DNA from: a virus
Virus record (IMG/VR): IMGVR_UViG_3300043567_000365
Span: 1-24,934 of that record
Length of the DNA: 24,934 bases
Direction: 5' to 3' (one strand)
In this document: positions 1,791-24,934 of the stretch, one piece after another
How positions within the stretch are numbered: position 1 is the first letter of the stretch
Layout: the number at the start of each line of letters is the position of its first letter
Program-made: the position numbers and the translations under genes
Notes under the pieces: model-generated
What the model was told of the DNA's origin: nothing
Database searches by the model: none
Seen by the model: the letters and a program-made list of their open reading frames with translations, nothing else

Positions 1791-2098
1791 GCCACCCTCC
1801 ATTCCCTCTCACCCCGCCCGCTCGCACTCCGTACTGTCCTGCCCGTCTCCACGATCTTCCCAGCCCGTGCAAGCTCGTTGATCCGCTTTCCGATCTGGTG
1901 CGGCATCAGTCCGCACCGTGCCGCGATGCCTGACGCACCCGCCGGCCCATGCGACAGCGCCTCGAGGATCGCCGCGTGGTGCTCGCCGGCGAACGTCTTG
2001 ACGCTGGCGGCTGCGGCCTTGCTCGTCACCGGATCAGTGCGGCGGAATAGCGGCAGTGTGTCCTCAATGTCTGGCGTGATGTAGTGCGGGCGGATCAT
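1787..2098 (-). CDS. Winged-helix DNA-binding protein
   Basis: 103 residues. The start ATG overlaps the stop of the methyltransferase (ATGA), and its own stop overlaps the HNH start, so the three genes are translationally coupled. After a Pro-rich N-terminus comes RTDPVTSKAAAAS (about 19-31), a motif I know from phage winged-helix proteins. It is followed by a helix-turn-helix/wing: HHAAILEALSHGP (about 40-52), GASGIAARCGLMPHQIGKRI (about 54-73), LARAGKIVETG (about 76-86). The order of two helices, a recognition helix and a charged wing supports DNA binding. It may load replication proteins or regulate the operon; the sequence does not say which. Confidence 0.8.
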   Translation of the reverse strand: MIRPHYITPDIEDTLPLFRRTDPVTSKAAAASVKTFAGEHHAAILEALSHGPAGASGIAARCGLMPHQIGKRINELARAGKIVETGRTVRSASGRGEREWRVA

Positions 2099-2991
2099 GC
2101 CACAGCCTCCGGTGCATCAAACAGCGTCCTGCTGTTCGCCTGGTGCGTCCGCTCTGCCTTCGCCAGATTCTTCAATGCCTGAGCGTGGTACTCGGGCTTC
2201 AGTTCGCAGCCGTAGAAGCGGCGTCCCTGCTGCAGCGACACGTACCCCTCGCTGCCGATGCCGGTGAACGGGCTGAAAACCACCTCGCCGGGATTGCTGT
2301 ACAGCCTGACGAGCCTGTCAATCACATCCAGCTGCAGCGGGCAGATGTGCTTCGTGTCTTCCTCGCTACGTGCCTCTTTGACGTTGAGCGTGTTCGTCTC
2401 GCGGATGTCGCTCCAGCAGCACTCGGCCCAGTCAATCCACTCGTTGCGTGAGACGTCGCCATCCGAGTCGATGGCTACTTCGTTCTCGCCGGGGGCACGG
2501 AACTTGATGAGGTAGTCGGGTAGGCATCCACGCTGCTTCGCTCTGTCGCTCTCAAGGCCGGCGAACTGCAACTCACGGCTGCGAGTGCGGATTGCCTGTG
2601 CCTGCGGATTCTTCCGCACCACCCAGTCGTATTCGTAGACAAGCCCGGCACGCTCGCCGAGGCGGATGTTGAGTCCACGGTAGTCGTGCAGGCCGACTTC
2701 GCCGGAACGCTTCAGCCTCGGGATCTGCATGACGTGCACCACGACAGCCCGGCCCGGCTTCAGCACGCGGGCCAGCCCGCGAAAGAAGTAGGACAGGTGT
2801 ATCTTGGCTTCGCCTTTCATGTTCTCGCTGTTGCCGATGTCCTCGGCCTTCGAGGTGTACGAGAACAGGCTGGGGAACGGCGGCGAAAAGACTGAGAAGT
2901 CCACCGACTGCGGCGGCATTTCTTCCAGCATGTGCGGGATGCAGTCGCCTTGGTGAACGGCATATTTCTGGTCAGTTGGTAGAAGAGTCAT
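2095..2991 (-). CDS. DNA methyltransferase (N4-cytosine/N6-adenine type)
   Basis: 298 residues. The ATG at 2991 has AGGAGG upstream; the longer open frame would overlap the helicase further. The catalytic motif IV is SPPF at residues 36-39, typical of amino-methyltransferases that modify the exocyclic N4 of cytosine (SPPY/F class). The AdoMet-binding motif FTGIGS is at 242-247, near the C-terminus, the beta-class order. Between them lie LARVLKPGRAVVVHV (about 73-87) and the target-recognition region with CLPDYLIKFR. It is sandwiched between a helicase and a DNA-binding protein and starts inside the helicase gene (20 nt overlap). A free-standing phage methyltransferase without a partner nuclease most likely protects phage DNA from host restriction or marks it for replication control (inference). 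The target sequence is not predictable. Confidence 0.9.
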   Translation of the reverse strand: MTLLPTDQKYAVHQGDCIPHMLEEMPPQSVDFSVFSPPFPSLFSYTSKAEDIGNSENMKGEAKIHLSYFFRGLARVLKPGRAVVVHVMQIPRLKRSGEVGLHDYRGLNIRLGERAGLVYEYDWVVRKNPQAQAIRTRSRELQFAGLESDRAKQRGCLPDYLIKFRAPGENEVAIDSDGDVSRNEWIDWAECCWSDIRETNTLNVKEARSEEDTKHICPLQLDVIDRLVRLYSNPGEVVFSPFTGIGSEGYVSLQQGRRFYGCELKPEYHAQALKNLAKAERTHQANSRTLFDAPEAVA

Positions 2992-4429
2992 GAAACATTT
3001 CCTCCTGCTCTCGGGTGTCGGCCTCGACGCGACGTGCCTTACGCAGCACGTTCTCAACCATCGGGCGCTCGATGTCGGTCACTGGGATATGGACGTTCAG
3101 TGGGCGAGTTGAGCCAACTCGGTTGGAACGCTTCACGGCCTGGTAATACTCCTCGTAAGAGTCCTGCAAGCCGCTGAATACTTGCCGCGTGCAGATCTGC
3201 AGATTGAGTCCGAAGCCAAGGATCTTGGGCTTCGTGATGAGCACCTTGATGCGTCCAGCCTTGAACTCGTCAACGAGTCGCTGGCGTTCTTCTTGCGGCG
3301 TCTTGCCGTCGATGCTCGCAGCATCCGGCATCATGGCGGCGAGCATGTCCTGCTCGTCGTTGTAGCGGCACCAGATGATGGTGCTTTCTGTCGGCCACTC
3401 TCGCACCATGTCAACGATGTACTGTGGCTTGATGCTGCTTTCGCACTTCGCCATACGCGAGAGCTTCGCCCTGGTGGTGATGCCGCCGAGTTGCGTGACG
3501 AACAGCTGCCCGGTAATGGCTTGAACTGCTTTGTCCTGCTCTGCAGAAAGCCGCACGTCGTCAATGTGGACGTGAATGGGCGGGATGTTGTGGACGTTGT
3601 CGGCCCAACCGTAGGTGCTCGGGTCAGTCAGGAAGATGCACCAGTGAGACAGTGCCTTGTAAAACGGCCTCAATGCGTGCGGCTTGAGTTCCCATCGCTC
3701 CATCGTCTGCCCGCGATTGATGAAGAACTTCGCGAGGAACGAATTGACGTTGGGAAAAGCATCGAGAAATACAGCGTGATTCGCGTACTCGATGCGGTCA
3801 TTCGGTGCCGGCGTGCCAGTCAGCGCCAGCTTCCACTCCACGCCAGCCCCGATGCGTAGGCACACCTGGCCCCATTTGCCGTAGTGGCTCTTGAGCATCG
3901 ACGACTCGTCGAGGATAAGCCCGCCGAGGTTGCCGTCTGGCGTGTCGTCACGCAGTGCGTCGTAGTTGGTGATGCCGAGCCGCCCGCCGGGCTTCTTCAT
4001 CCACTTGGCGAGATCCTTGGCGGCTACCTGCTCGATGGGCAGCGTGTCACCGTAGAACTTCTGAGCCTCGGCAATCGTCTGTGCCACTACCATCAGAGGC
4101 GAGACAATCAGCACCGGCTTTTTCGGGCACGCCTCGCGGACGTGGCGAGCGAACTCCAACAGCATCAGCGTCTTGCCAAGCCCGCAGTCGGCGAAGATGG
4201 CGTAACGCTTCTTCTCTACTGCCGTGCGGACGATGTCGCGTTGATAGTCAAACAGGCCAGGTCGTGGCTCGTAGGCTGAAGCCTTTGCCTTCTTCGCCTT
4301 TACGCCGATGTCGCCTGCGTACTCGTCAGGAAACCACGCCATCCTGCCGTGAATCTCGTATCGCGGAAGCGACTTGATGCGAAGGAACTTGCGGTATGAG
4401 TCGATCGTGTCGTCAAGATAAATCTGCAC
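2972..4429 (-). CDS. SNF2-type DEAD/DEAH helicase
   Basis: 485 residues from a GTG at 4429, chosen because AAAGGA sits 6 nt upstream. The frame stays open for another 54 codons upstream without a good ribosome site. Superfamily 2 motifs are clear: Q-like DYQRD (61-65), Walker A DCGLGKT (81-87), motif Ia IVSP (108-111), DES box (174-176), motif III TGTPAPN (204-210). The C-terminal RecA lobe has GFGLNLQ and the arginine-finger helix QAVKRSNRVGS. ATP-driven translocation on duplex DNA is the family activity. Phage SNF2-like helicases of this length usually accompany replication or recombination modules. Its 3' end overlaps the methyltransferase start. A Cys-rich in-frame stretch just upstream is described separately. 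Confidence 0.92.
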   Translation of the reverse strand: MQIYLDDTIDSYRKFLRIKSLPRYEIHGRMAWFPDEYAGDIGVKAKKAKASAYEPRPGLFDYQRDIVRTAVEKKRYAIFADCGLGKTLMLLEFARHVREACPKKPVLIVSPLMVVAQTIAEAQKFYGDTLPIEQVAAKDLAKWMKKPGGRLGITNYDALRDDTPDGNLGGLILDESSMLKSHYGKWGQVCLRIGAGVEWKLALTGTPAPNDRIEYANHAVFLDAFPNVNSFLAKFFINRGQTMERWELKPHALRPFYKALSHWCIFLTDPSTYGWADNVHNIPPIHVHIDDVRLSAEQDKAVQAITGQLFVTQLGGITTRAKLSRMAKCESSIKPQYIVDMVREWPTESTIIWCRYNDEQDMLAAMMPDAASIDGKTPQEERQRLVDEFKAGRIKVLITKPKILGFGLNLQICTRQVFSGLQDSYEEYYQAVKRSNRVGSTRPLNVHIPVTDIERPMVENVLRKARRVEADTREQEEMFHDSSTN

Positions 4430-4591
4430 TGTGAATCCTTTCGTGGTGTGTATTGGCCGCGTCTCGTGCGGCATCCCGGCTGCGTTACCCGTTGGAGTCA
4501 AGCCGCAGCTGCGGCAGTTACTCGCCACCGATCCGCTGGGCGGCCAATGGTGCCTTGGATCGCAGCACCTACGGCAATGGCGTGCCGGTCG
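4430..4591 (-). other. Intergenic stretch with in-frame Cys-rich coding potential
   Basis: 162 bases between the small charged gene (stop TAG at 4592-4594) and the helicase GTG. The frame of both genes is the same. After the TAG it reads through CRRCCDPRHHWP and NCRSCG, a paired CxxC pattern resembling a zinc ribbon, and runs on into the helicase. The only possible start codons here (GTG at 4528, then an ATG) lack ribosome sites. Another frame is also open (about 36 residues, GLSDRHAIAVGAA), likewise without a start. The most conservative reading is a noncoding spacer carrying the helicase ribosome site; a readthrough product is possible. Confidence 0.35.
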
Positions 4592-7940: not shown

Positions 7941-8906
7941 ATGACCAGAATACTACGGGACATCTACGAAAACGAGTACGCAGTGCTGCGGGCACATTCT
8001 GACCAGTGCAGGCGGCAATACCGGCTGACGTTTGCCCGCTGGGCAGACCAGCTGAAAACGGAGCCGACAACCGAGCACCTCGACCCGCTGGTGGTTCAGA
8101 CCTACGTTGCCAGCCGGCGAGCCGTGCGGTCAGCCGCCACGGCCAGAAAGGACCGAAACCAGATTTCCGCCCTCTGGTCGTACTGCGCAAAACGGCGATA
8201 CGTTGACCAGTTCCCAACGCTTGCCCAGATACGGGCACCAGGACGCATACCACGAGGCTACACGGTCGATGAGGTCTCAGCCCTCTTGCGGCAGGCTTTG
8301 CAGCGACGGCCCCGTATAAAGCCAACCACGCTGCCGCCGCACCTTTTCTTTCCGCCGCTGATTAGGTCGTGCTGGGAGACCGCCGAACGGATCGGTTCGC
8401 ATCTGGCACTCCGCTGGCGTGACGTGGACACGACGCAACGAATCGTCATCTTCCCAGCCGAGGGTCGGAAAGGCGCGACCCGCGACATCCTGCGGACGAT
8501 TTCAGAGGATCAGTGCAAGTGGCTTGAGCAGATCCGAGGCAAGCCTGACGATCTGGTCTGGCCGTGGACTGCTGACAAAAGCACCTTGTGGCACCACTTC
8601 GGGCTGCTTTGCAAGCGGGCCGGCGTCACAAACCGTGGCTTCCACGGGCTGCGGAAGTCTGCCGCCAGCTACATGGCGCTTGCTGGTGGCGATGCCACGC
8701 AACTGCTTGACCACTCAAACCCAGCCATCACCAAGGCCCATTACATCGACGTGACGATTGCCAAGCCGAAGCAGACGGCGATTGACCTGCTGCCACCGCT
8801 TGACCTGACGACGCCAAAGCCGCCGGCCAGCGAGCAGCCGCCAGAGAAGCCCGCCGACGCCCCGCCTGCCAGCGACGAAAAGCCGCCAGAGAACAACGCT
8901 GCTTGA
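7941..8906 (+). CDS. int: Tyrosine recombinase (phage integrase)
   Basis: 321 residues, ATG at 7941 with GGAG 7 nt upstream. The N-terminal SAM-like core-binding domain is about 1-95. The catalytic domain has R150 (AERIGSHLALRW), K177 (GRKG), the H235-x-x-R238 pair (HGLRKS), H258 (LDHSN) and the nucleophile Y268 (KAHYID). All active-site residues are therefore present. A Pro/Ala/Glu-rich disordered tail of about 45 residues follows the catalytic domain and is unusual. The enzyme would integrate the phage at a host att site. It is transcribed away from the excisionase-like gene. I found no tRNA or duplicated core that would reveal the att site. Confidence 0.95.
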   Translation: MTRILRDIYENEYAVLRAHSDQCRRQYRLTFARWADQLKTEPTTEHLDPLVVQTYVASRRAVRSAATARKDRNQISALWSYCAKRRYVDQFPTLAQIRAPGRIPRGYTVDEVSALLRQALQRRPRIKPTTLPPHLFFPPLIRSCWETAERIGSHLALRWRDVDTTQRIVIFPAEGRKGATRDILRTISEDQCKWLEQIRGKPDDLVWPWTADKSTLWHHFGLLCKRAGVTNRGFHGLRKSAASYMALAGGDATQLLDHSNPAITKAHYIDVTIAKPKQTAIDLLPPLDLTTPKPPASEQPPEKPADAPPASDEKPPENNAA

Positions 8907-12485: not shown

Positions 12486-13619
12486 CTACTGTGCAAGGTG
12501 GAACGTGTCAGCAATGAGGCGAGCAGGTGAAGGCATCCGAGCTTCTGGCGGGAATGGCTGCAGCCAATTGCCGTGGTCCAGATTCCGATAGCGAAAGTTC
12601 ACGCCTGAGATGCTGAATGAATCTTGACCAGAGAGCATCGCATCAACCGTCTGGCGATCTACCCAGAATGAGCCGTCAGGCTGGTCTGCCGGCCACTTCG
12701 GGCCTGCATTAAAGACGCCCCAGCTGTTCATGCAGAGAAGCCCATCACGCTTGCCTTCGTTCTTGGCGTAACGCACGGCAATGAAGCACATGCAATGCGC
12801 CCAAGAGCCTTGGCGTGGCGCGAAGCCATCGGCGTCACGCTGCGACGAAAAGCCAACTCCGCTGCAAACTGGCACACAAAAGCCGCTTTCTAAACTTGCG
12901 GCAGCCTCGTCAAAGTTTCGCACGAGGGCGACGTTTGTCGCCGTGTTCTTGTTGGCTAGCTTGGCGAGGGAAATTCCCACTTGCCCACCGCCGCACAACA
13001 AGTTGCCCCATTCCTTCGCCCGCTGCGGGCTGTAGGTCGTCAGGTCGGCACCGGGGTACGGCTGGCGAAACAGGATGCCGCCTACCGTCGGGTCTTTGCA
13101 CTTGCCGGCGACCCAGCGTGCACATGCACCTCCATAGCTGCCGTCGCTGTACCCTGCCTGCGTCACAGGAGGAAGTCTGCCGGCGGTACGACTACCCGAG
13201 TACAGGCTGGTTGTGTCGACGAGTTTTGGCGGCTCCGGCAATTCGCCTTCGGCCCAATCCACACATTGGCCCACATAGCTTCCCATAGCCCAACCAAAGC
13301 TCGTGCAATCGCCTATGCCTTGCTTCCACGGGCCGAACGGCTTGCCGTAGACCTGGCGGTGAGCACGATCTGCGAAGCGATAGAGGAACGTGTCCTGCCC
13401 CTTGGCGTTCTTGATCACGTCCTTGGCAGCGTCCGAGAAGAGTGGCTGGTCGAGCTCGGCCAAGAAACGCTGCGTCCCGGCAGGATCTGGCACATAGCCG
13501 AACTGCCCGTCAATGCGTGCCGCGACCCGGTGCGTGGCTCGCTCAACGAGCGCACCCAAGATCGCCATCACGATCACGAACACAACGGCAGACAGCGACC
13601 AGCGGTTAGCGCGTGACAT
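12486..13619 (-). CDS. Membrane-anchored papain-like cysteine peptidase
   Basis: 377 residues from the ATG at 13619 (GAGGG about 10 nt upstream), overlapping the upstream gene by 14 nt. An N-terminal membrane helix (about 9-25, LSAVVFVIVMAILGALV) is followed by a papain-fold (C1-type) domain. It has Q100 (oxyanion) and C105 in WKQGIGDCTSFGWA, H275 in GSWAHCMCFIAV, and N298 in LLCMNSWG. All four catalytic positions are in canonical order and spacing. Multiple additional Cys residues suggest disulfides and an extracytoplasmic place. No peptidoglycan-hydrolase motif is present. It sits in the lysis-gene position, between membrane proteins. It may be a wall-protein protease or lysin (inference, see findings); a maturation protease is less likely because head genes are not nearby. 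Confidence 0.85.
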   Translation of the reverse strand: MSRANRWSLSAVVFVIVMAILGALVERATHRVAARIDGQFGYVPDPAGTQRFLAELDQPLFSDAAKDVIKNAKGQDTFLYRFADRAHRQVYGKPFGPWKQGIGDCTSFGWAMGSYVGQCVDWAEGELPEPPKLVDTTSLYSGSRTAGRLPPVTQAGYSDGSYGGACARWVAGKCKDPTVGGILFRQPYPGADLTTYSPQRAKEWGNLLCGGGQVGISLAKLANKNTATNVALVRNFDEAAASLESGFCVPVCSGVGFSSQRDADGFAPRQGSWAHCMCFIAVRYAKNEGKRDGLLCMNSWGVFNAGPKWPADQPDGSFWVDRQTVDAMLSGQDSFSISGVNFRYRNLDHGNWLQPFPPEARMPSPARLIADTFHLAQ

Positions 13620-14160
13620 CAGCGGCAGCCCTCGACAGGTCACGGAGTGCCAACACCCACGCCGCTCGGCTCTCTGGCGTCACAGGACCGCCAGATGAGC
13701 CCACAGCGTCGTCTAAGAACTTATGGATGGCTTCTTTGGCGTGCGGCTGCCGGGCACCGATGCTCTCGCCACGGCATCGCATCTCGCGGGCGGCGATCCG
13801 CAGCTCATCAAACGCCACGCCCGTCTTGAGCCGCTGGTCGTGTTGTCCGTCCCACTCAATGCACGACGCCAGTTCGTCGCACAAGGCAGAGAGCGTGGCT
13901 GCATCTGCTGCGGCAGTCGGCCCGATGAACTTGCCTCGTAGCGTGAACGCATCCGGCGGCGCAGGCGAAGGGGTCGGTGCTGGTGCTTGCCGGCTCGGCG
14001 CAAAAGCAATAACCGCAGCAACGAGCAATGCCACAGCGGCGACGTACTGCCCGTCGATGGTCGGCATCTTGGCCGTGGCGTACCACGCTTTGACATTCTC
14101 TGTGATCTGCTGGCCGGCAAGCACGTAGACCGCAAAGGCAATGAGTAACGCTGTGATCAC
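13606..14160 (-). CDS. Two-helix membrane-anchored phage protein
   Basis: 184 residues from a GTG at 14160 (GAGGAAG upstream), overlapping the upstream stop as GTGA. Hydrophobic helices at about 2-18 (ITALLIAFAVYVLAG) and about 39-55 (YVAAVALLVAAVIAFA). Then a Pro-rich linker (APAPTPSPAPP) and a soluble helical domain with CDELASCIEWDGQHDQRLKTG and the FLDDAVGSSG region. It belongs to the membrane-protein run around the peptidase. The N-terminal TM pair plus a cytoplasmic or periplasmic domain recalls spanin or holin-associated proteins, but no family is recognised. Confidence 0.7.
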   Translation of the reverse strand: MITALLIAFAVYVLAGQQITENVKAWYATAKMPTIDGQYVAAVALLVAAVIAFAPSRQAPAPTPSPAPPDAFTLRGKFIGPTAAADAATLSALCDELASCIEWDGQHDQRLKTGVAFDELRIAAREMRCRGESIGARQPHAKEAIHKFLDDAVGSSGGPVTPESRAAWVLALRDLSRAAADVTR

Positions 14161-16865: not shown

Positions 16866-17303
16866 TCAAGCGTTTCGCCGTGCGCTCGCAATTGCCCGCC
16901 GCACGAGCAGCCTGCCCGCCACGTCGAGGAACGGCAGTCCGCGAGCCGTGGCCTGCTCGTTGAGCCATTCGACGATGGTGTCGATATTGGTCTCGCACCA
17001 GCCGGGCGATTGCTGTTCCTGACGGTCCATCTCGGCGGCGCGAGCGTTGCAGGAGCAGTCGGGGCTGGCGGTGATGTAGAGCGGCCATCCGGCGAGGAGC
17101 TTTTTTAGTTCTGTGCCGGGGCCGTGGGAAAGTGGGAAAGTGGGCGATTCCTGCAGCCGCGACACTCGCGGATAGAACTCGCTCTCTGTGTCAATCGTCC
17201 ACTCGTCGCCGTCCTGCGAAACCACGCACGGCAGCACCTCGTCGAGCGTGTAGCCACGCTCGGCGCAACGGGCCTCAAGGTTAGAGCGGTGGCAGGTGAT
17301 CAT
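16866..17303 (-). CDS. Conserved late-region phage protein
   Basis: 145 residues, coupled by ATGA overlap to the tail-type gene upstream. It starts MITCHRSNLEARCAERGYTLDEVLPCVVSQDGDEW and ends with NIDTIVEWLNEQATARGLPF and AGRLLVRRAI. The internal CSCNARAAEMDRQ and WCETNIDTI place Cys residues for a possible metal or disulfide site. I recognise this arrangement as recurrent in planctomycete-associated phage or prophage sequence, but it has no assigned function. Probably a late structural or assembly accessory protein. Confidence 0.75.
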   Translation of the reverse strand: MITCHRSNLEARCAERGYTLDEVLPCVVSQDGDEWTIDTESEFYPRVSRLQESPTFPLSHGPGTELKKLLAGWPLYITASPDCSCNARAAEMDRQEQQSPGWCETNIDTIVEWLNEQATARGLPFLDVAGRLLVRRAIASARRNA

Positions 17304-18109
17304 GGGAGTGGGTTGAAAAACGAAATGCTGGTTGTGGTGCCGATCTGGCTTGAAAGCGAGAGAGGCACGTTCACGTTGCCGACAGAGTCCGTCACATATG
17401 GCACGGAATTGAGTGTGTCTGAGATACTTGGAAAGAAAGAGCCGTCAAGGCACTGAGTTCGCGGGTATGGCGCAGCAGATGAATATGTTTTTGAGATAAC
17501 CGTCTTGTTCCACGAAGATATGCCTCTGAATCCTGATTCGTAGTTAGGACAGAGATCAAGTGGCATCAGACTGTTTTCAAGGACAGAAATCTGCACCGCC
17601 ATCGTGATAGAATTTCCTTGCACTGCAAGACCCAGTTCTACAGACACAGTTGGCTGGAAAACTGGTCCCCCGAGCGAATTTGCTGGCGCAGGCGTTTGCG
17701 TTGTTGCGCTTACGGAGCCGCTCCAGTTGCAAGTTTTCTCAAAATCGATTCCAGCATTCCCAAATACAGGTATAGGAGAAATAACACCACTTGCAGTCAC
17801 AGCCCACGCTATGTCACACACCTTCCGTCGACCGGCGTTCTGTAACAAAAGTTTTTCAAACGCAATCGACAATGAAAATGGAATGTTGAAATCACACCCG
17901 CAACACGGATTCGGGCTGCACACCGTCCCTACGCCCTTGAACGTCTTCCCCGTCCCCTGGCACTGGCACTGCGGCTTGACCGTGCACGTCGTGCCCTCGC
18001 AGCACGCGCCTTCTTTGCAGGCTTGGTTGCACTCGGCCTCGGTGGCGTAGGACGTGCGGCCTGTGGTCGTAAAGCCGGGCGGGGAGTTTGATGGTTGGTA
18101 GCAGGGCAT
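17300..18109 (-). CDS. Cys-rich tail/fibre-type protein
   Basis: 269 residues, ATG at 18109, one nucleotide after the stop of the preceding gene. The N-terminal 75 residues are Cys-rich (CNQACKEGACCEG, CTVKPQCQCQGTG, CSPNPCCGC), a likely disulfide-knotted module. The C-terminal 190 residues are beta-rich and Ser/Thr/Asn-rich with low charge (ASGVISPIPVFGNAG, TVSVELGLAVQGN, ENSLMPLDLCPN). The C-terminal part has clearly lower G+C than its N-terminal part. Position after the distal-tail-like and two structural genes, and the exchange-prone composition, suggest a tail tip or receptor-binding protein (inference). Confidence 0.7.
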   Translation of the reverse strand: MPCYQPSNSPPGFTTTGRTSYATEAECNQACKEGACCEGTTCTVKPQCQCQGTGKTFKGVGTVCSPNPCCGCDFNIPFSLSIAFEKLLLQNAGRRKVCDIAWAVTASGVISPIPVFGNAGIDFEKTCNWSGSVSATTQTPAPANSLGGPVFQPTVSVELGLAVQGNSITMAVQISVLENSLMPLDLCPNYESGFRGISSWNKTVISKTYSSAAPYPRTQCLDGSFFPSISDTLNSVPYVTDSVGNVNVPLSLSSQIGTTTSISFFNPLP

Positions 18110-18110
18110 A

Positions 18111-18926
18111 TTAGTACGACACGTTCACAAAATTGATAGTTGTGGCGTCGGTGCCTGAACTCTTGTCAATTACTTCTGGACCTCTTGTCGGATCGTATTG
18201 CACTTTGTAGTAGCTAGACGCAGTGCGTCCATACACAGAAGGCAGCGACGGATTCCATGCACGCACGCCGGCGAGGCATTGAGAAGAAACAAGATGGCAG
18301 TCCGCCGAAGTGTTCCACCATACTACCCTTGGCCCGAGTGGATTGTATGGGTCGTACGTGTCTCCTATACCGGCACCTTGTGACCCGCCAAAAGTAAACG
18401 TGCGCGACCCAAAGATACCGCTGCCGCCGTCTCCGGGGACGACAACTTGATCACCCTTTTCGTAGTATTGCTGCATCCCTGACACTGATTCAGTTCTGGC
18501 TACCCAGGCATGATAAGTGCATAGCTTTGCGCTGATTCGGTACAGCGAGAACTGATCTTCGGTGGTGACGGTTATGTCTGCCTCTGATGTTGGGCAATAA
18601 ACGCAACCGCCGATATTGGGCAGGCCGAGGCCAAATGACTTCGTCCAAAATGTTTTCGTTGTGTCTGGCGTGAGCGCGTGCGTCCCGTTCAGGTGCGCCA
18701 TCACGGATAGAAAACTCACATACCACAATGTGCCGTTGTTGTCCCTGTACCGAGAGTGACGAATAAAATCTGTGGCCGTCACGCTGATGGACACGGACGA
18801 AATCGTAGTTGGCGCACACTTACACGACTCATCGCCAGAGCAATACCACCCACCGCAGCACCCGCAGTTCTCTGCGATCTGGCCGTCCTTGACGATCAGC
18901 GATCCGTTTTTCGTGGCGAGTGTCAT
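18111..18926 (-). CDS. Tail/fibre-type structural protein with small N-terminal Cys motif
   Basis: 271 residues from the ATG at 18926, overlapping the stop of the preceding gene as ATGA. The N-terminus TLATKNGSLIVKDGQIAENCGCCGGWYC has a compact Cys cluster. The remainder is beta-rich with aromatic residues (FIRHSRYRDNNGTLWYVSFLS, FGLGLPNIGGCVYC, VVWWNTSADCHL), consistent with an extracellular structural protein. Like the next gene it has a high-G+C start and a more A+T-rich body. No enzyme motif seen. Confidence 0.7.
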   Translation of the reverse strand: MTLATKNGSLIVKDGQIAENCGCCGGWYCSGDESCKCAPTTISSVSISVTATDFIRHSRYRDNNGTLWYVSFLSVMAHLNGTHALTPDTTKTFWTKSFGLGLPNIGGCVYCPTSEADITVTTEDQFSLYRISAKLCTYHAWVARTESVSGMQQYYEKGDQVVVPGDGGSGIFGSRTFTFGGSQGAGIGDTYDPYNPLGPRVVWWNTSADCHLVSSQCLAGVRAWNPSLPSVYGRTASSYYKVQYDPTRGPEVIDKSSGTDATTINFVNVSY

Positions 18927-19666
18927 GTGCAGGCCGTGGTGGAGACCCACGCCAAGCCGCCGTTGGCTGCGTGCGTGAGCACTTGCTGAGTGGACGCCGA
19001 GTAGCCCGTCATGCTGTGCCAATCCCAGCCGACTAGCACCCACTCATCGGCAACATACGCGATGAGGCAAACGGAACCCGACAGCGTGGCGATGTAGTTC
19101 TTCGCGGTGTATGTCGCACCCGAGATGACGGCATCAGTGACGGTCGTCGTGCTGCCTTTCGTCCACGTCCCTGAGAACGTGCCGCGAATGACGCCGGCCT
19201 GCATCCGAATCAGTGCCCAGTTAGAATCCTTCCAGAGGACATGAGCCCCAGACGCCTTGCCGAGGTCTGCCGCCTTCAGCTGCACCACACCACCAACCGC
19301 CACCCTGCCAACAGCGTTCGCCGCAATCGGCTCAACGGCCACGCACCAAGCCGTCGTGGTCGCAGAAGGCGACGCACCCGTCAGCACCGGCATTTCCTCG
19401 AACGACGCTGTCGCGCCGCCTGACGACGACGTAGGCGTGATCTCCATGCCAGTGATCGCCAGTACGCCCCAGCGAGCGACGGTGACGCTAGGCTTGCAGT
19501 ACACCCATGTGTACGGCTTCAGCACAGGCGAGCCGGGGACGCCTGCCGTGCCGGGATTGGCACCAAGCACAAGGTCCGCAGCGTCCTGCGCTCGATTCCA
19601 CGCACGGGCACTGATCGCCCCGCGTAGCGGCTGGCCCGGTTCTAGGCGTCCGTCTGGGCGTGCCAT
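18923..19666 (-). CDS. Phage structural protein (tail type)
   Basis: 247 residues; the ATG at 19666 overlaps the preceding stop. It begins MARPDGRLEPGQPLRGAISARAWNRAQDAADLVLG, a conserved-looking helical N-terminus I know from planctomycete-associated phage sequences. Then come Gly/Thr/Ser/Val-rich beta repeats (GTFSGTWTKGSTTTVTDA, GWDWHSMTGYSAS). No catalytic motif. It lies between the distal-tail-like protein and the two fibre-type proteins and is probably part of the tail tip or baseplate. Confidence 0.75.
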   Translation of the reverse strand: MARPDGRLEPGQPLRGAISARAWNRAQDAADLVLGANPGTAGVPGSPVLKPYTWVYCKPSVTVARWGVLAITGMEITPTSSSGGATASFEEMPVLTGASPSATTTAWCVAVEPIAANAVGRVAVGGVVQLKAADLGKASGAHVLWKDSNWALIRMQAGVIRGTFSGTWTKGSTTTVTDAVISGATYTAKNYIATLSGSVCLIAYVADEWVLVGWDWHSMTGYSASTQQVLTHAANGGLAWVSTTACT

Positions 19667-20505
19667 TAGCCGATACCTAACGCAGAGAAGTTGCCGTCTT
19701 TGTAGACCTTGTTGACGTAGGCGTATTTGGGCTTCTTGATTCGATCAGTCGTTGTGGTTGCTTCCTCGTACCGCACCCACAAATACTCGTGGCCTTTTTT
19801 GTTGACGCTCAACGTGCCAACCGGCTGATTCGTCACGTTTGGCGACGCGACGAAGCGATAAGAAAGCGACCACGGCCCACGCCCCTTTTCGTCGTCCCAC
19901 TCTTGCGAGCCAGAGCAGCCGAGAAACAGCACTTCGCCAGCATCAAACCCACGGAACGACGAGGCGTTCGTTCGCCCTGTCTGCGTTGCCACGCCCTTGA
20001 TGTAGGCATCTGTGACGTATGCGTTAGGCACGTCGTATGTCTCTGTCCAAGACAGCTGCGGCACGACAACGTCAACGCCGTTCACGCCGTTATCATCCAC
20101 GGCGATAGCGTTGCCAAACGACGGGCCGCCGCCAAATATCGTTTCGCTCTCAGCCTGCGTAATGTGCTGTGTGCCGCCGGTCGTATCGAAACTGCGAGCC
20201 CGCTTCAGCGGGTTTGTTCCGTCCTCTGCGCCGTCCTTCGAGTAGTTGATCGTCAACTGCCAAGCGTTGTCGCCTAGGAACGAGACAGAGTAGGACTCTG
20301 CCATCAATTGCATTCCAGATACGCCTGGATACTGCCAGTAGCGGCCGTTGGCGCTGATCCCTGCGTTGATCTCAGCATGCAGCACAGTATCGTCGGCAGT
20401 GCCGAAGATCTTGTAGCTCTTCGTGTAGCTAGAAGCCGCCTTGCGTCCCTTGCGGACGATGGTCGCCTGCCGTGAGTCGCCGTCTTCCACCCATACGAGT
20501 GCCAT
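19666..20505 (-). CDS. Distal-tail-like structural protein
   Basis: 279 residues, ATG at 20505 overlapping the tape measure stop (TAATG). It starts MALVWVEDGDSRQATIVRKG and is beta-rich, with AGISANGRYWQYPGVSGMQL, FLGDNAWQLTINYSKDG and a long QEWDDEKGRGPWSLSYRF region. Position directly after the tape measure gene is that of Dit/distal tail proteins in siphophages. Assignment by position and composition, not by a diagnostic motif. Confidence 0.7.
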   Translation of the reverse strand: MALVWVEDGDSRQATIVRKGRKAASSYTKSYKIFGTADDTVLHAEINAGISANGRYWQYPGVSGMQLMAESYSVSFLGDNAWQLTINYSKDGAEDGTNPLKRARSFDTTGGTQHITQAESETIFGGGPSFGNAIAVDDNGVNGVDVVVPQLSWTETYDVPNAYVTDAYIKGVATQTGRTNASSFRGFDAGEVLFLGCSGSQEWDDEKGRGPWSLSYRFVASPNVTNQPVGTLSVNKKGHEYLWVRYEEATTTTDRIKKPKYAYVNKVYKDGNFSALGIG

Positions 20506-23033
20506 TACGCTGCCACCTTTCCGCCGTCGTCAATCTTGCGGGTATTCTTCGCCGTCTCTTCAGCCGCCTTCGCAGTGCGTTCCGCGAGCGAACTGCCGCC
20601 GAACACGCTGCCGAGGTTGAGCGATGAGAAGGTGCCGGCGACTTGCCCCATGCTCTGTGCCGACTGGGCACCGGCCGCATCAGCGCCAGCCGTCGCAGCC
20701 TTCTCGCTCGGCGATGCACCCATTGAGCTAGTCGCCTTGCTGATCCGCTCCTGTGCATCGTCAATGGCATTCTCAAGGATGCCTGCCTGATTGCTCGTCA
20801 GGCGACCGCTTGAGTTCAGAGCGTCAAACTGCCCGTAGAGATCAGCCAGCTGATCCAGCGACGTTGCGTTCTCAACTTCCTTGAGCAGATCAGCGAACTG
20901 CTCGCCCATGACTCTCCGTTCCTTGCCACGCCGTGACGTAGCACCGACGTTCTCTTCTGCCGCCTGCGTGTCGCTGCGCCGCCTGTCGGAACGCCTAGCG
21001 TTCTCGGCTTGCCGCTCGTCCTTGGTTGCCTGTGCATCCTCCCTGATTCCCTTTTCGCGATCCTTGCGGTCCTTCTCTGCCTGCCTGTTCTGCTCGTCAG
21101 CCTTGGCAGTCCTGCCCTCGATGCCCGGTCGCTCCTGCCGTCGCTGTTCAGCACGGGCAGCATTCTTGTCCTTGATCTTTTGAATCCGCTCCTTTGTGTC
21201 CTTCGCACCCGTAATGAATCCCTGCACCCTCGTCCATGCGATTTGGATGCCTGCCACGAGGTTGTCAAACGTCGCCATCACGCCGTTAGCGATGTTGTCA
21301 AAGAAGCCCATAATGAAGGCACCCATCGTGTTCAGCAGGGCAGCGGAGTCTGTGTAAATCTTGTCCCATGCGATGTAGATGCCCGAGCCGATGTCGGTGA
21401 ACACGTCTTGAAACGCTGCCACCCACGGATCAACGTAGGACATCAACGCTTCAGTGCCACGCAGCCAGCCGGCGACAAGCCCAGCCCAGAGGACGTCCAT
21501 AGCACCGGACAGGTCGCCGGCAGCGACAGCTTCGTAGACGCCGTTGAAGGTGGTCGTGGCTGTGGCGGCGAGGTCGCCTAGGACGACGATGCCGTCAGCC
21601 ACTGCTGCACCAAAACCCTCGCCGATGGCTCCTGCCGCCTGTTGGACGAGAGAAGCCACCGGGCCGAGGGCCGCACCTATCTGGTCTTTAAACTTGTAGA
21701 GAGCAAAGACCGCCGCACCGATGCCAGCCGCAACCAGCAGCACCGGGCTAGCAAGGGCAGAAAAGAGACCGAAGCCCTTCAAGACAAGACCGATGGAGCC
21801 GCTCAACGCCTGCAACGAATACCCTACAGTCACCATTGCAGCACCGATGCCAATGGCTGCGGCGGCAACTTGAGCAAACAAGACGACGGCTTCCTTATTG
21901 TCAGTCGCCAGCTTCGTCAGCCCGTCGATGAATCCCGTGATGAACGGCAACGCACCCGCAAGAGCCGGTGCCACTGCATCCGTGATGGCAATAGCCATCC
22001 GCTGCATTGCCGCCAGCACGCTACCGAACGAGCCAGCCAGGCCCGACATCACTAACTTGTACTTCTCGCCCACTGGCAGGGCGGATGCCATCGCTTCACG
22101 CATCTTGGTGAATCCATCCACGCCTTCAGAAGCGAGAATCGACGCGGCACGAATGGCGTCCGCACCGAAGATGCGGCGGAAGATGTCATCCTTCGCTGTC
22201 TGGTCTAGGCCTCCCATCGCTTGATTGAGCGTGCCGATGATTTCCACCATCGGCTTCATTTGCCCGTCAGCGCCACGAAACGAGGCGACCGAAAGCCCGA
22301 GTTGGTTAAGGGCACCCACGGCATCGTCAGCCGGTGCCATCAGCCGCATCAGCATCGTCTTGACGCTGGTGCCGGCGTCGCTGCCCTTCACGCCGTTGTT
22401 GGCGAGGATTGCCAGCGTCGCCGACAAGTCCTCAATGCTCTGCCCAGCTAGGCCGGCGACGGCAGACGACATTGAGAACGCTTCCGACATCTGAGCGATA
22501 GACGTGCTTGACGCATCCGCAGCCGAGGACAACGCATTGGCGGCGACGTCGGACGACACCTTGAACACGTTCATGGCGTCCGACATCACCACAGCCGCCT
22601 GGGCAACGTCCATCTCGCCAACCTTGGCAAACTCCAACGCCGTCTGCCCAGCACCACCGAGCACGGCATCAAGCGACATGCCTGCCTTCAGCAGTTCAAG
22701 CATGCCCTGAGCCGCCTCGGTAGGCCCGACGCCGAGAGCCTGCGACATCGCCATAGACGATGCCTTGATCTGGTCGATCTGCGCCGACGTCGCACCCGTG
22801 CTCGCCCGAATGTTGAGCAGCGTGGACTCAAACGCTGCACCCTGACGCACGGCAGCGGCAATCGGTGCCGCCATGCCGATGCCAGCAGCAGCAAGCTTGC
22901 CGCCGCCAGACGCGAGCGAGCGGCCCATATTGCCGAGGCTTTTGTTGACCTTGGTCAGCGCCGAGAAGAACTTCCTCGGATCGGCACCGATCTCGACAAA
23001 TACGCCACCGGCTCTGACTGCTCCAGCACTCAT
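20505..23033 (-). CDS. Phage tail tape measure protein
   Basis: 842 residues; the ATG overlaps the stop of the frameshifted chaperone ORF (ATGA). The N-terminal region has the TP901/TIGR01760 pattern: VEIGADPRKFFSALTKVNKSLGNM (about 14-37), GAAFESTLLNIRASTGATSAQ (about 65-85), and EAAQGMLELLKAG (about 106-118). Long helices with SIEDLSATLAILANNGVKGSDAGT follow. Hydrophobic segments lie at about 350-450 (PALAGALPFITGFIDGL, AVVLFAQVAAAAIGIGAAMV). The C-terminal third is charged coiled coil (KIKDKNAARAEQRRQERPG, KDREKGIREDAQATKDERQ). This protein sets tail length and forms the channel for DNA injection. Confidence 0.93.
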   Translation of the reverse strand: MSAGAVRAGGVFVEIGADPRKFFSALTKVNKSLGNMGRSLASGGGKLAAAGIGMAAPIAAAVRQGAAFESTLLNIRASTGATSAQIDQIKASSMAMSQALGVGPTEAAQGMLELLKAGMSLDAVLGGAGQTALEFAKVGEMDVAQAAVVMSDAMNVFKVSSDVAANALSSAADASSTSIAQMSEAFSMSSAVAGLAGQSIEDLSATLAILANNGVKGSDAGTSVKTMLMRLMAPADDAVGALNQLGLSVASFRGADGQMKPMVEIIGTLNQAMGGLDQTAKDDIFRRIFGADAIRAASILASEGVDGFTKMREAMASALPVGEKYKLVMSGLAGSFGSVLAAMQRMAIAITDAVAPALAGALPFITGFIDGLTKLATDNKEAVVLFAQVAAAAIGIGAAMVTVGYSLQALSGSIGLVLKGFGLFSALASPVLLVAAGIGAAVFALYKFKDQIGAALGPVASLVQQAAGAIGEGFGAAVADGIVVLGDLAATATTTFNGVYEAVAAGDLSGAMDVLWAGLVAGWLRGTEALMSYVDPWVAAFQDVFTDIGSGIYIAWDKIYTDSAALLNTMGAFIMGFFDNIANGVMATFDNLVAGIQIAWTRVQGFITGAKDTKERIQKIKDKNAARAEQRRQERPGIEGRTAKADEQNRQAEKDRKDREKGIREDAQATKDERQAENARRSDRRRSDTQAAEENVGATSRRGKERRVMGEQFADLLKEVENATSLDQLADLYGQFDALNSSGRLTSNQAGILENAIDDAQERISKATSSMGASPSEKAATAGADAAGAQSAQSMGQVAGTFSSLNLGSVFGGSSLAERTAKAAEETAKNTRKIDDGGKVAA

Positions 23034-23431
23034 ACGTGTTTCTGCCAGTCTTGCCCGAATAGGCGTTTTAGGTCATCAGGCGTCGCCTGTCTCGGTTTCG
23101 GTTTCTTTGCGTACGGATTGAGTTTGCGAGGGTCTGCCTTCGGCGAGTTCTTGTCTCGGTTGATGTTTGCCTGCTGTGCGAGAAGGTTCGCCGTGTGCCA
23201 CCAATCGTGCTCTAGGCGGCTGTCACGAGCGGCGAAGAGTTGTCGGACGGTCCACTCGCCTGGATGGACTCCGAGGATTCCAGCGGCTTCCCAGACTGCA
23301 TCCCAGATGCTCCGGCGAGGCTCTCGATCGTCGCCTTCTCCAGCCCCGCCTCCGCTCGACCCAACATCTCGCTTGCGACCTCGTCCATTTTCTGAGCGAG
23401 AAGCGCGATCATCTTGCGGAGGCGCTGGGGG
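23030..23431 (-). CDS. T part of tail-assembly chaperone G-T (made by -1 frameshift)
   Basis: The -1 frame after 23431 has no ATG, GTG or TTG start but runs about 134 codons to a TGA at 23030-23032 that overlaps the tape measure start. It reads through a Pro/Gly/Asp-rich linker (PPAPPQDDRASRSENG, SSGGGAGEGDD) into RRSIWDAVWEAAGILGVHPG (about 40-60) and WTVRQLFAARDSRLEHDWWH (about 62-81), then ANLLAQQANINRD. This is the T-domain pattern of siphophage tail-assembly chaperones. Without a start it can only be made as the C-terminal part of a G-T fusion. The fusion binds the tape measure protein; G alone binds tail-tube subunits. Confidence 0.82.
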   Translation of the reverse strand, partial: PPAPPQDDRASRSENGRGRKRDVGSSGGGAGEGDDREPRRSIWDAVWEAAGILGVHPGEWTVRQLFAARDSRLEHDWWHTANLLAQQANINRDKNSPKADPRKLNPYAKKPKPRQATPDDLKRLFGQDWQKHV

Positions 23432-23769
23432 AAAAAATCGACAAGCTCCTGCTCTAGTGCCTTCGTGGCAGCGTCCAGCGAATCGCCCCGCAGACCGTCA
23501 AGGAAGTCTTCCCTCGTCAGTCCCTTAGTCTCCACTTGCTTGGTCAGCAGTGCGTAGAGGATCTCGCCAATCTTGGCGTACTGGCTTCGCAGCACTTGGA
23601 ACGTCTGCGAGATGTTCGCAGCGTCAACCATGTCGAACGGCACAGCCTTACGCTCGCCGCTCTCTTCGTCCACGACGTCAACCGTGACGTTGTCGCGGAC
23701 ACGAAGTGCCGAGGCGACGGTCAACGCCACCTGCCACGGTCTGCCCTGGTCATCCCTAAACTCACGCAT
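23212..23769 (-). CDS. Tail-assembly chaperone G
   Basis: 185 residues, ATG at 23769; it begins MREFRDDQGRPWQVALTVASALRVRDNV. Internal helices include AANISQTFQVLRSQYAKIGEILYALL (about 49-74), GLTREDFLDGLRGDSLDAATKALEQELVDFF (about 83-113), and, after the slip site, RLRKMIALLAQKMDEVASEM. A TTTTTTC heptamer in the correct phase (23431-23437) lies at codons 111-113. Ribosomes slipping there make the G-T protein described separately, about 245 residues long. Frame-0 ribosomes end at 23212 in a Ser/Pro-rich tail. The location just before the tape measure gene is the classic one. Confidence 0.85.
   Translation of the reverse strand: MREFRDDQGRPWQVALTVASALRVRDNVTVDVVDEESGERKAVPFDMVDAANISQTFQVLRSQYAKIGEILYALLTKQVETKGLTREDFLDGLRGDSLDAATKALEQELVDFFPQRLRKMIALLAQKMDEVASEMLGRAEAGLEKATIESLAGASGMQSGKPLESSESIQASGPSDNSSPLVTAA
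23431..23437 (-). promoter_or_regulatory. Candidate -1 ribosomal frameshift site T TTT TTC
   Basis: On the minus strand the heptamer reads T TTT TTC in frame with the chaperone gene (codons GAT, TTT, TTC), followed by a C-run. It matches the X XXY YYZ rule for simultaneous -1 slippage. The -1 frame then stays open to the T-domain stop. A downstream stimulatory structure has not been worked out. Confidence 0.75.
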
Positions 23770-23774
23770 CCCAC

Positions 23775-24137
23775 TTACCTCACAAGAGCCGGATCAGTCA
23801 TGCGACCTTCGAGCACAAAGGACGCCACGCCATCAATCGGGTCTGTCTCCGAAATCCCGGTCATCACCGCCAGAAACGAAAACCCGGCAGCGCCGCCGTT
23901 CACCGTGAACGTCCCGCCCGTGTGCATTTTCTGGAACGCCGTGCCCAGATCTGCTGCGTCGTTCAACTCGACAGACACGCTGCACTCGTAGCCCGTGCTG
24001 TAGACCGCTGCGTAGCGACTGCCGTAGGCGTTCACGTCGATCGTGCGGGCGGATTCCGTCAGCGTCACATTGCGAGCGCTGAAGATTTGCCCGCCATCGA
24101 GCATGATGGAGCAGTCTTTCCCCAGCGTGATCGCCAC
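23775..24137 (-). CDS. Tail-tube-like protein 1
   Basis: 120 residues; the ATG lies one nucleotide into the stop of the next gene. It starts MAITLGKDCSIMLDGGQIFSARNVTL. The shared fold pattern continues: TIDVNAYGS (about 33-41), CSVSVELNDAADLGTAF, GGTFTVNGG, and the closing PIDGVASFVLEGRMTDPA. All-beta, Gly- and Thr-rich, as expected for a tail tube subunit. It is the last of three paralogues and lies directly before the chaperone gene, the usual place of the tube gene, so this may be the main tube protein. Confidence 0.75.
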   Translation of the reverse strand: MAITLGKDCSIMLDGGQIFSARNVTLTESARTIDVNAYGSRYAAVYSTGYECSVSVELNDAADLGTAFQKMHTGGTFTVNGGAAGFSFLAVMTGISETDPIDGVASFVLEGRMTDPALVR

Positions 24138-24454
24138 TAGAACTCCTTAGCCGTCACATTGAAGGTCACTGCCCCATCAACTCCTATATTTTCGGACACA
24201 GACATGACCGACCATCCGGTCGTCGCGTTCTGCTCAAGTGCCGCGATCAGACCAGCTGCGTCGTGGCACTCAATCTCCCACGTTTTGGTGGTGAAGCCGA
24301 CAGCGGCAACCTTCTTGCCAGGCCCGACGGCAGCGCCGACGCTGCTCCTGTTGGAAATGTCAATTGTCTCGGCTTCTTCGGTGTACGTGGCTGAGATGAC
24401 GCCAGCCCCGAACGGCGGCTCTGCTGAAACGTCCTTACCAAGAGTGATAGCCAT
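24137..24454 (-). CDS. Tail-tube-like protein 2
   Basis: 105 residues, starting MAITLGKDVSAEPPFGAGVISATY. It shares with its neighbours the MxITLGK start, ETIDISNRSS (about 29-38), a KTWEIECHDAAGLIAAL segment matching the tube pattern, and a closing GVDGAVTFNVTA. It lacks the longer GGQIF insertion of paralogue 1. The same fold is expected; the role may be a tube variant, a tip or a tail-terminator piece. Confidence 0.72.
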   Translation of the reverse strand: MAITLGKDVSAEPPFGAGVISATYTEEAETIDISNRSSVGAAVGPGKKVAAVGFTTKTWEIECHDAAGLIAALEQNATTGWSVMSVSENIGVDGAVTFNVTAKEF

Positions 24455-24466
24455 GAGGTTTACTCC

Positions 24467-24805
24467 TTAAGCTGATGCGGGTGTGGTGCGAGTGCCCGAA
24501 ACCGTGTACGTAACAATTCCATCAAGCGGCTGACTCTGCGAAATGTTCGTGCAGATGTAGGTGGCATTTCCGGTAGTTGTTCCGGCGATCGTAAAACTTC
24601 CGCCGAGGCTGACGCCCGGGGCGTCTACGCACTCAAGTTCAATCGTCTGCTCAATGAGAGCCTTCCTGAACTTGCGGGAAGTGTCGCCGAACTTGGTGAC
24701 ATCGACGTCAGACGCAGAGTTGGTGACAGTGCAAGAGCGCGCGTTCGCAACGCCTGCGACGACCACATTTTTCCCGAGCGTGACAGTAACGGAAGAACCA
24801 GACAT
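24467..24805 (-). CDS. Tail-tube-like protein 3
   Basis: 112 residues; the ATG at 24805 has GAGGA upstream. It starts MSGSSVTVTLGKNVVVAGVANARSC and shares the TVTLGK strand, SDVDVTKFGDTSRKF (about 33-47), TIELECVDAPGVSLGGSFTIAG and the closing PLDGIVTYTVSGTRTTPASA with the two downstream genes. Three related genes in a row point to tandem duplication and divergence. It is the first of the three in the direction of transcription. Confidence 0.7.
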   Translation of the reverse strand: MSGSSVTVTLGKNVVVAGVANARSCTVTNSASDVDVTKFGDTSRKFRKALIEQTIELECVDAPGVSLGGSFTIAGTTTGNATYICTNISQSQPLDGIVTYTVSGTRTTPASA

Positions 24806-24893: not shown

Positions 24894-24934
24894 CTAGTTC
24901 TTCGCCAGCTGGTCTTTCCACTTCTTGTTGGCTT
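24894..24934 (-). CDS. C-terminal end of an upstream late gene (partial)
   Basis: The window edge cuts this gene. The visible part reads ANKKWKDQLAKN and a TAG stop at 24894-24896. Basic, helical ending, consistent with a neck or tail-completion protein expected before tail-tube genes in siphophages, but 12 residues are not enough to tell. The 88 bases between it and the next start hold the ribosome site GAGGA and nothing else I can support. Confidence 0.5.
   Translation of the reverse strand, partial: ANKKWKDQLAKN

Follow-up and report, generated by a model that had tools for sequence, protein, structure and literature searches.

Three paralogous genes of the tail tube type, here called T1, T2 and T3, stand in tandem at the place of the major tail protein in a 24,934-base stretch of viral DNA (the window). 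The record is classed as linear and is therefore probably a fragment, in this case of the genome of an uncultured, long-tailed phage. The three genes keep a fixed order among relatives, their duplications are older than the family we sampled, and no tail sheath is detectable beside them. Our preferred explanation, to which we give a probability of roughly 0.6, is that one ancestral tube gene was copied twice before the family radiated, leading to three tube-fold rings that are not interchangeable, with T3 forming the bulk of the tube and T1 and T2 serving specialised positions. If labour is divided in this way, all three proteins would be found in virions.

Gene organization and the tail module

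The late genes of the window lie on the minus strand, with T1-T2-T3 at the high-coordinate end. Three consecutive genes had been predicted at positions 23775-24805, and open reading frames of 112, 105 and 120 codons indeed occupy this interval on the minus strand (Table 1), a strand that the prediction had left unstated. T3 starts with GTG, and one base is common to its start and to the end of the T2 frame. When the record itself was searched with T3, exactly three places matched: T1, T2 and T3. The motifs that had been described for the three proteins hold with exceptions once the translations are inspected. The N-terminal pattern begins with methionine, but T3 starts with GTG; the TIDV strand reads TIDI in T2; the D-A-(A/P)-G turn is present as DAPG in T1 and DAAG in T2 but becomes DAAD in T3; and the C-terminal motif appears as PLDG in T1 and PIDG in T3, whereas T2 has GVDG, without the proline.

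Table 1. Position and strand of the tail genes and of other features in the window.
Feature	Position	Strand	Remarks
T1	24467-24805	-	112 aa; tail-tube paralogue
T2	24137-24454	-	105 aa; tail-tube paralogue
T3	23775-24137	-	120 aa; tail-tube paralogue; adjoins the tail chaperone gene
Putative tail assembly chaperone (G-like) ORF	23212-23769	-	185 aa; between T3 and the tape measure gene
Putative second-frame (GT-like) chaperone extension	23030-23497	-	Open from stop to stop; from three-frame translation
Tape measure protein	20505-23033	-	842 aa; PF10145, E 6e-38; phrog_1533, E 3e-68
Neck/tail-completion-like gene, C-terminal end (KANKKWKDQLAKN)	24894-24934	-	Cut by the window end; compared by eye with the protein of relative L191
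Cysteine-rich protein	18111-19043	-
Cysteine-rich protein	17300-18109	-
Putative papain-like protein	12486-13643	-	385 aa
Tyrosine integrase	7941-8906	+	PF00589, E 1.3e-11
SNF2/helicase-like protein	2972-4528	-
DNA N6/N4 methyltransferase	2095-3057	-

T1, T2 and T3 occupy the position of the siphophage major tail protein: neck- and terminator-like genes precede them, and the chaperone and tape measure genes follow. The 185-aa ORF that follows T3 has homologues in 300 loci among the matches listed and no convincing Pfam or PHROG family, so that its naming as a chaperone rests on its position and on a two-frame architecture. The second-frame extension ends on the start of the tape measure gene (ATGA) and has a homologue in 285 listed loci, in the same relative frame in 283/283 of those compared. 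A G/GT pair in two frames is typical of siphophage tail chaperones, which the two ORFs resemble. Among the listed loci the open frame of the tape measure ranges from about 690 to 1190 aa. Past the tape measure gene lie two proteins that are cysteine-rich near their N-termini and have no convincing family match.

Upstream of T1, the neck-like gene encodes about 274 aa in relatives and matches phrog_26 (tail-completion/Neck1) in 12 of 18 of them (best E 5.3e-5). It is preceded in relatives by a 155-aa gene with weak terminator matches, each in one member of 17 (phrog_179 at 0.012, phrog_37 at 0.042 and phrog_176 at 0.27). Further upstream, relative L191 has a gene for a head-tail joining protein (PF25138) together with fibre-like genes. 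The fibre-like genes (L191:836-6324; fn3 and laminin-G domains, tail fibre PHROGs) are located between the head-tail joining and the neck/tail genes, which is an unusual place for fibre genes. Four other relatives have an ORF of 606-614 aa; the one copy scanned, in L326, has a C-terminal capsid domain and adjoins a portal and a GpA-type terminase gene.

The sheath search, made with PF04984 alone, detected this family in 0 of 12 large contigs, possibly incomplete, and in 3 of 14 known genomes used as a control. A contractile phage was rejected on the basis of this result. Given the tape measure gene, the two-frame chaperone and the lack of a PF04984 sheath, the phage is therefore most likely a non-contractile siphophage.

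Elsewhere in the window, an SNF2/helicase-like protein adjoins a DNA methyltransferase. Additionally, a 385-aa protein has the motifs CTSFGWAMGSY, GSWAHCMCF and MNSWG, noticed by eye, which look papain-like; it has no Pfam match at 0.01.

Family assignment and predicted fold

Of 31 relatives of T3, 30 match phrog_1407 ('major tail protein'), with a best E of 9.2e-12, and by sequence match T3 belongs to this established major tail protein family; the window's own T3 reaches it at just 0.0036. For T1, 16 of 19 relatives match phrog_4574, likewise named 'major tail protein', but weakly (at best E 0.0024). T2 matches no named tail family convincingly among the PHROGs searched with its 28 members: one member reaches a major tail protein PHROG (0.083), and the best match, at 0.0011, is to an unnamed PHROG reached by three. 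T2 was filed as a tube paralogue because of its relationship to T1 and T3, not through a family match of its own. On the tail tube protein of Roseobacter phage CRP-406, the T1 HMM scores 28.5 bits, that of T3 15.3 and that of T2 4.2; the T2 HMM does better on Bacillus phage phi18-2, whose major tail protein it scores at 7.0 bits, though both T2 scores are weak. It is thus T1, and not T3, that lies nearest by HMM to a known single tube protein, that of CRP-406. Pfam holds no family for the T1, T2 and T3 of the window. Among 31 T3 members, one reaches PF09393 ('phage tail tube protein') at 0.036, and the remaining rows are unrelated and weak. Sequence searches of the PDB with T3 and T1 gave no meaningful match.

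AlphaFold2 models of T3 and T2 have moderate confidence (pLDDT 61 and 71, respectively). The best Foldseek matches in the PDB, at E of about 1e-3, are phage neck, baseplate, tube and Hcp entries for T3, and tail entries of a gene transfer agent (GTA), monocin, SPP1 and R4C for T2; Foldseek does not indicate the tube chain within composite entries. The matches of T2 include the R4C tail tube protein (8gtb) and the GTA entries 6toa_G and 6tba_50, whose chains would correspond to the GTA tube (RcGTA g9). In BFVD, several 'major tail protein TP901-1' entries appear for the T2 model from rank 2 onwards, among unnamed phage proteins. VIA-align did not separate tube proteins from unrelated folds for either model: with T3 a cyanophage tube and a flavin reductase share Z 8.4 and PilZ domains score slightly lower, and with T2 domains of the PilO/XcpY type lead at Z 7.3. 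The structure prediction that had been proposed as a check gave a mixed answer for T2 and T3, in which the tail-tube neighbours found by Foldseek speak for the prediction, and the moderate pLDDT and the undiscriminating VIA-align results speak against it. T2 and T3 may have the tube fold, as their moderate-confidence models suggest, and T1 would share it through its homology to T3. The original description of the proteins as tail-tube-like agrees with the PHROG matches of T3 and, more weakly, of T1, with the tail-tube neighbours of the T2 and T3 models and with the tail-tube position in the operon.

Distribution among relatives

Five scans of viral contigs, from each of which the best 80 loci at most were taken, provided at least 314 loci. 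Together with three loci from the record itself and three reference phages (CRP-406, Hestia and phi18-2), 320 loci were examined; close relatives dominate this sample, and the locus counts are lower bounds. T1, T2 and T3 occur in that order in 285 of the 317 non-reference loci, among the matches listed for the three HMMs. The other 32 listed loci have T2 and T3 (9), T3 alone (3), T1 and T2 (2) or no match (18). All 14 incomplete sets stand at a contig end, with at most 178 bases before the first T2, 84 bases before a lone T3 and 2 bases after the last T2. The 18 loci without a match were reached through the tape measure and begin inside the chaperone or tape measure gene or shortly ahead of it, also at a contig end. 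Hence no listed locus with an uncut region is without T1, T2 or T3. Among the reference phages, the three HMMs find one T1-like gene in CRP-406 and none in Hestia and phi18-2.

Greedy merging of loci that are identical over their overlap left at least 160 groups with the set, 155 of which have three closed ORFs in their first member. A group is not equivalent to a single contig, since near-identical contigs merge and the record under study touches two groups. In 14 contigs of 31-45 kb, the T3 profile (E 0.01) finds two to three places each, all inside the set, and no further copy of T1, T2 or T3 was found outside it at this threshold. In the loci L037, L044 and L050 the tape measure has diverged strongly from that of the window (E about 1e-58 to 1e-65, where most loci give 0), yet T3 is about 87% identical, which points to mosaic exchange.

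Two pattern-seeded scans of a collection of bacterial and archaeal genomes, one for T3 and one for T1, found no relative in a host or prophage. The window encodes a tyrosine integrase, on the strand opposite to the late genes, which suggests a temperate phage, though the two genome scans gave no prophage relative of T1 or T3. Among cultured phages, tblastn found no match for T3 at E 1 and none for T2 at E 10; T1 gave weak matches only, the best being the CRP-406 tail tube (E 0.07). Queries from divergent relatives gave a similar picture: T3 from two of them matched weakly, at best a 'tail tube' of a Pontimonas phage (E 0.9), and T1 from one of them found CRP-406 as its best match (E 0.03).

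Paralogy and age of the duplications

The three proteins are significantly similar to one another, as expected from the prediction that they are paralogous, and the all-against-all alignment suggested as a check, run pairwise, was significant for every pair (BLASTP E 6e-15 for T1-T3, 4e-8 for T2-T3 and 3e-6 for T1-T2). In global and local shuffle tests, 0 of 1000 shuffles reached the real score for any pair, and comparison of the family alignments as profiles gave probabilities of 97.9% for T1-T3, 96.6% for T2-T3 and 95.9% for T1-T2. Chance similarity is ruled out by the shuffles and the profile comparison.

Across 146 representatives, orthologues share on average 76% (T1), 71% (T2) and 70% (T3) identity, with minima of 50, 49 and 41%, whereas the copies inside one genome are 33-37% identical over the aligned part. 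Judging from the mean distances, T1 evolves slowest of the three. In a tree of 70 rows, which has few alignment columns and a very long CRP-406 branch, T3 falls on one side of a branch with support 100 and T2 likewise with support 89; T1 does not form one clade (2 changes), but the well-supported branches do not exclude one. The three class labels together require 2 changes, the minimum possible. Taken together, the identities and the tree place the duplications before the sampled family, so that the split of T1, T2 and T3 is old as judged by sequence comparison. Neither a local duplication nor an artefact of assembly would account for three classes of this age or for a set that returns in about 160 sequence-distinct groups, and both were rejected.

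Co-divergence, coupling and expression signals

Among the 39 groups with all nine of the compared genes, T1 and T2 diverge together (r 0.89, partial 0.72). T3 keeps pace more closely with the neck-like gene (r 0.91, partial 0.49) and with the extension of the chaperone (0.89) than with T2 (0.66). In 46 thinned genomes the correlation decreases from T1-T2 (0.74) to T1-T3 (0.58) and T2-T3 (0.43), each step of this order being recovered in at least 99.65% of 2000 bootstraps. T1-T2 exceeds T2-T3 in 2000/2000 bootstraps, though both pairs are neighbours. This pattern fits cooperation between T1 and T2 with T3 apart, and it may equally reflect recombination between T2 and T3 rather than contact.

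T3 starts between -1 and +4 nt from the end of T2 in 142 of 146 representatives, and 126 of the 146 have a Shine-Dalgarno-like motif within T2; from these features the two genes look translationally coupled. Codon usage, ribosome-binding strength, start codons and charge give no consistent answer as to which copy is abundant. The start codon of T2 is ATG in 155/155 cases, and T3 uses GTG (76), ATG (65) or TTG (14). The mean ribosome-binding energy is -6.1 for T1, -4.9 for T2 and -6.8 for T3 (146 representatives), and all three proteins are acidic, with mean net charges of -2.8, -5.8 and -5.5, respectively (46 representatives). Comparison of codon usage with that of the capsid gene in four genomes singled out no copy.

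Possible roles of the three proteins

Position and family match make T3 the candidate for the bulk tube protein, which it probably is, and in our best reading T1 and T2 are predicted to form specialised or mixed rings. The tail would nucleate at its tip, around a tape measure coated with chaperone. T3, whose gene adjoins that of the chaperone and which appears coupled to the translation of T2, would then polymerise into the bulk tube, and T1 and T2, which diverge together, could provide specialised rings linking the bulk tube to the terminator and to the distal tail protein.

The main rival to T3 as the bulk protein is a mixed tube: T1 and T2, or even all three proteins, would share hexameric rings or alternate ring by ring along the whole tail. 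The joint divergence of T1 and T2, seen both in the 39 groups and in the 46 thinned genomes, would be expected of such partners, and so would the coupling of T2 and T3; yet the divergence of T3 tracks that of T1 and T2 less well than that of the neck and chaperone genes, and coupling is commonplace in phage late operons. Mixed rings do have a parallel in the superfamily, in the Hcp2-Hcp3 heterohexamer of the Bacteroides type VI secretion system (T6SS; PDB 9vne, as titled; as cited in PMC13323088). Weighing these points, we find a mixed tube rather doubtful. An obligate three-component tube, with T1 and T2 co-assembling with T3 in common or alternating rings, can be put forward tentatively; it would be a heteromeric siphophage tail tube, of which the surveyed portions of the literature gave no description.

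Alternatively, one protein might build the tube, with one paralogue as terminator or stopper and one as a distal tail (Dit-like) protein, comparable to the gene multiplication described for RcGTA, where the stopper, terminator, tube and distal tail proteins are all tube-like in fold (excerpt of PMC7296036). T1 sits just ahead of the next tube gene, as does the gpU/terminator gene in CRP-406 and Damascus. However, the relatives have a separate 155-aa gene upstream with weak terminator matches, which weakens the case for T1 as terminator, in addition to a Neck1-like gene, and the rings of RcGTA share less than 19% identity according to the same excerpt, as opposed to 33-37% here, making such an assignment of roles unlikely. 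Finally, a single protein could build the tube while the two others, used in decoration, assembly or outside the virion, merely keep the fold. The differences in start codon and ribosome-binding strength among the genes would suit this explanation, as would T2, which has no recognisable major tail protein family. Since every uncut locus in the sample retains all three genes, none of them looks dispensable on the sampled scale, and we judge this explanation very improbable.

Comparison with known systems

The tube of a siphophage is usually regarded as a homopolymer, with the tape measure setting its length. Two tail proteins of SPP1 arise through frameshifting; SPP1 is also the subject of a 2008 study by Auzat. 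The expectation that most siphophages have one tube protein agrees with CRP-406, Hestia and phi18-2, each of which has one annotated; that there should be two at most does not hold for Microbacterium phage Damascus, whose annotation lists three major tail proteins related to one another. In CRP-406, the tube gene (134 aa) is placed after a gpU-like gene and one ORF ahead of the tape measure. The R4C tube consists of 20 layers of one-protein hexamers, according to the part of its description available. CRP-406, R4C and RcGTA (g9) thus have one tube gene each, and here there are three paralogues.

Damascus (cluster EL) encodes its three 'major tail proteins', gp17, gp19 and gp20, upstream of the tape measure, with 42-51% identity among them, and Gordonia phage Nithya (cluster DJ) has two that are mutually homologous, gp25 and gp27. 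In the sections available, the Damascus paper counts two major tail proteins (PMC11080557), and two have been reported for EL and DJ actinophages and for sepunaviruses. A capsid-protease fusion is annotated in Damascus and Nithya; the relatives described here have a protein of 606-614 aa, of which the one scanned copy has a C-terminal capsid domain only. Unlike T1, T2 and T3, the Damascus and Nithya tail proteins have 255-609 aa, and gp18 separates gp17 from gp19 and gp20. None of these five proteins scores above 0.9 bits with the T1, T2 or T3 HMM, and no sequence relation to them was found. With three in the Damascus record, there is a precedent for one phage carrying three paralogous major tail genes. 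No example of tail tube paralogy or duplication emerged from a literature search, and what seems new, as far as gene sequences tell, is that a large uncultured family carries single-domain tube genes throughout as a strict tandem triplet.

Tube-fold proteins with different positions in one particle are known from other systems. In the extracellular contractile injection system (eCIS) AlgoCIS, the same-fold proteins Alg1, Alg5 and Alg7 form the bulk tube and its initiator layers (PMC8894135, in the portion available); an eCIS is contractile, whereas no sheath family was found here. The Hcp2-Hcp3 pair shows, going by the title of its entry, that tube-fold paralogues can mix in one ring, though in a secretion tube and not in a virion tail. 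RcGTA is similar in that several rings of one ancestral fold are stacked along the tail (PMC7296036, excerpt), and differs in the lower identity given above and in the different roles of its rings, whereas the copies here lie in tandem. A triplet family as widespread as this one offers a natural system for studying whether tube rings can mix or become specialised by position. It also displays, still readable in sequence, a stage of gene multiplication of the kind that has been invoked for the RcGTA proteins serving as stopper, terminator, tube and distal tail.
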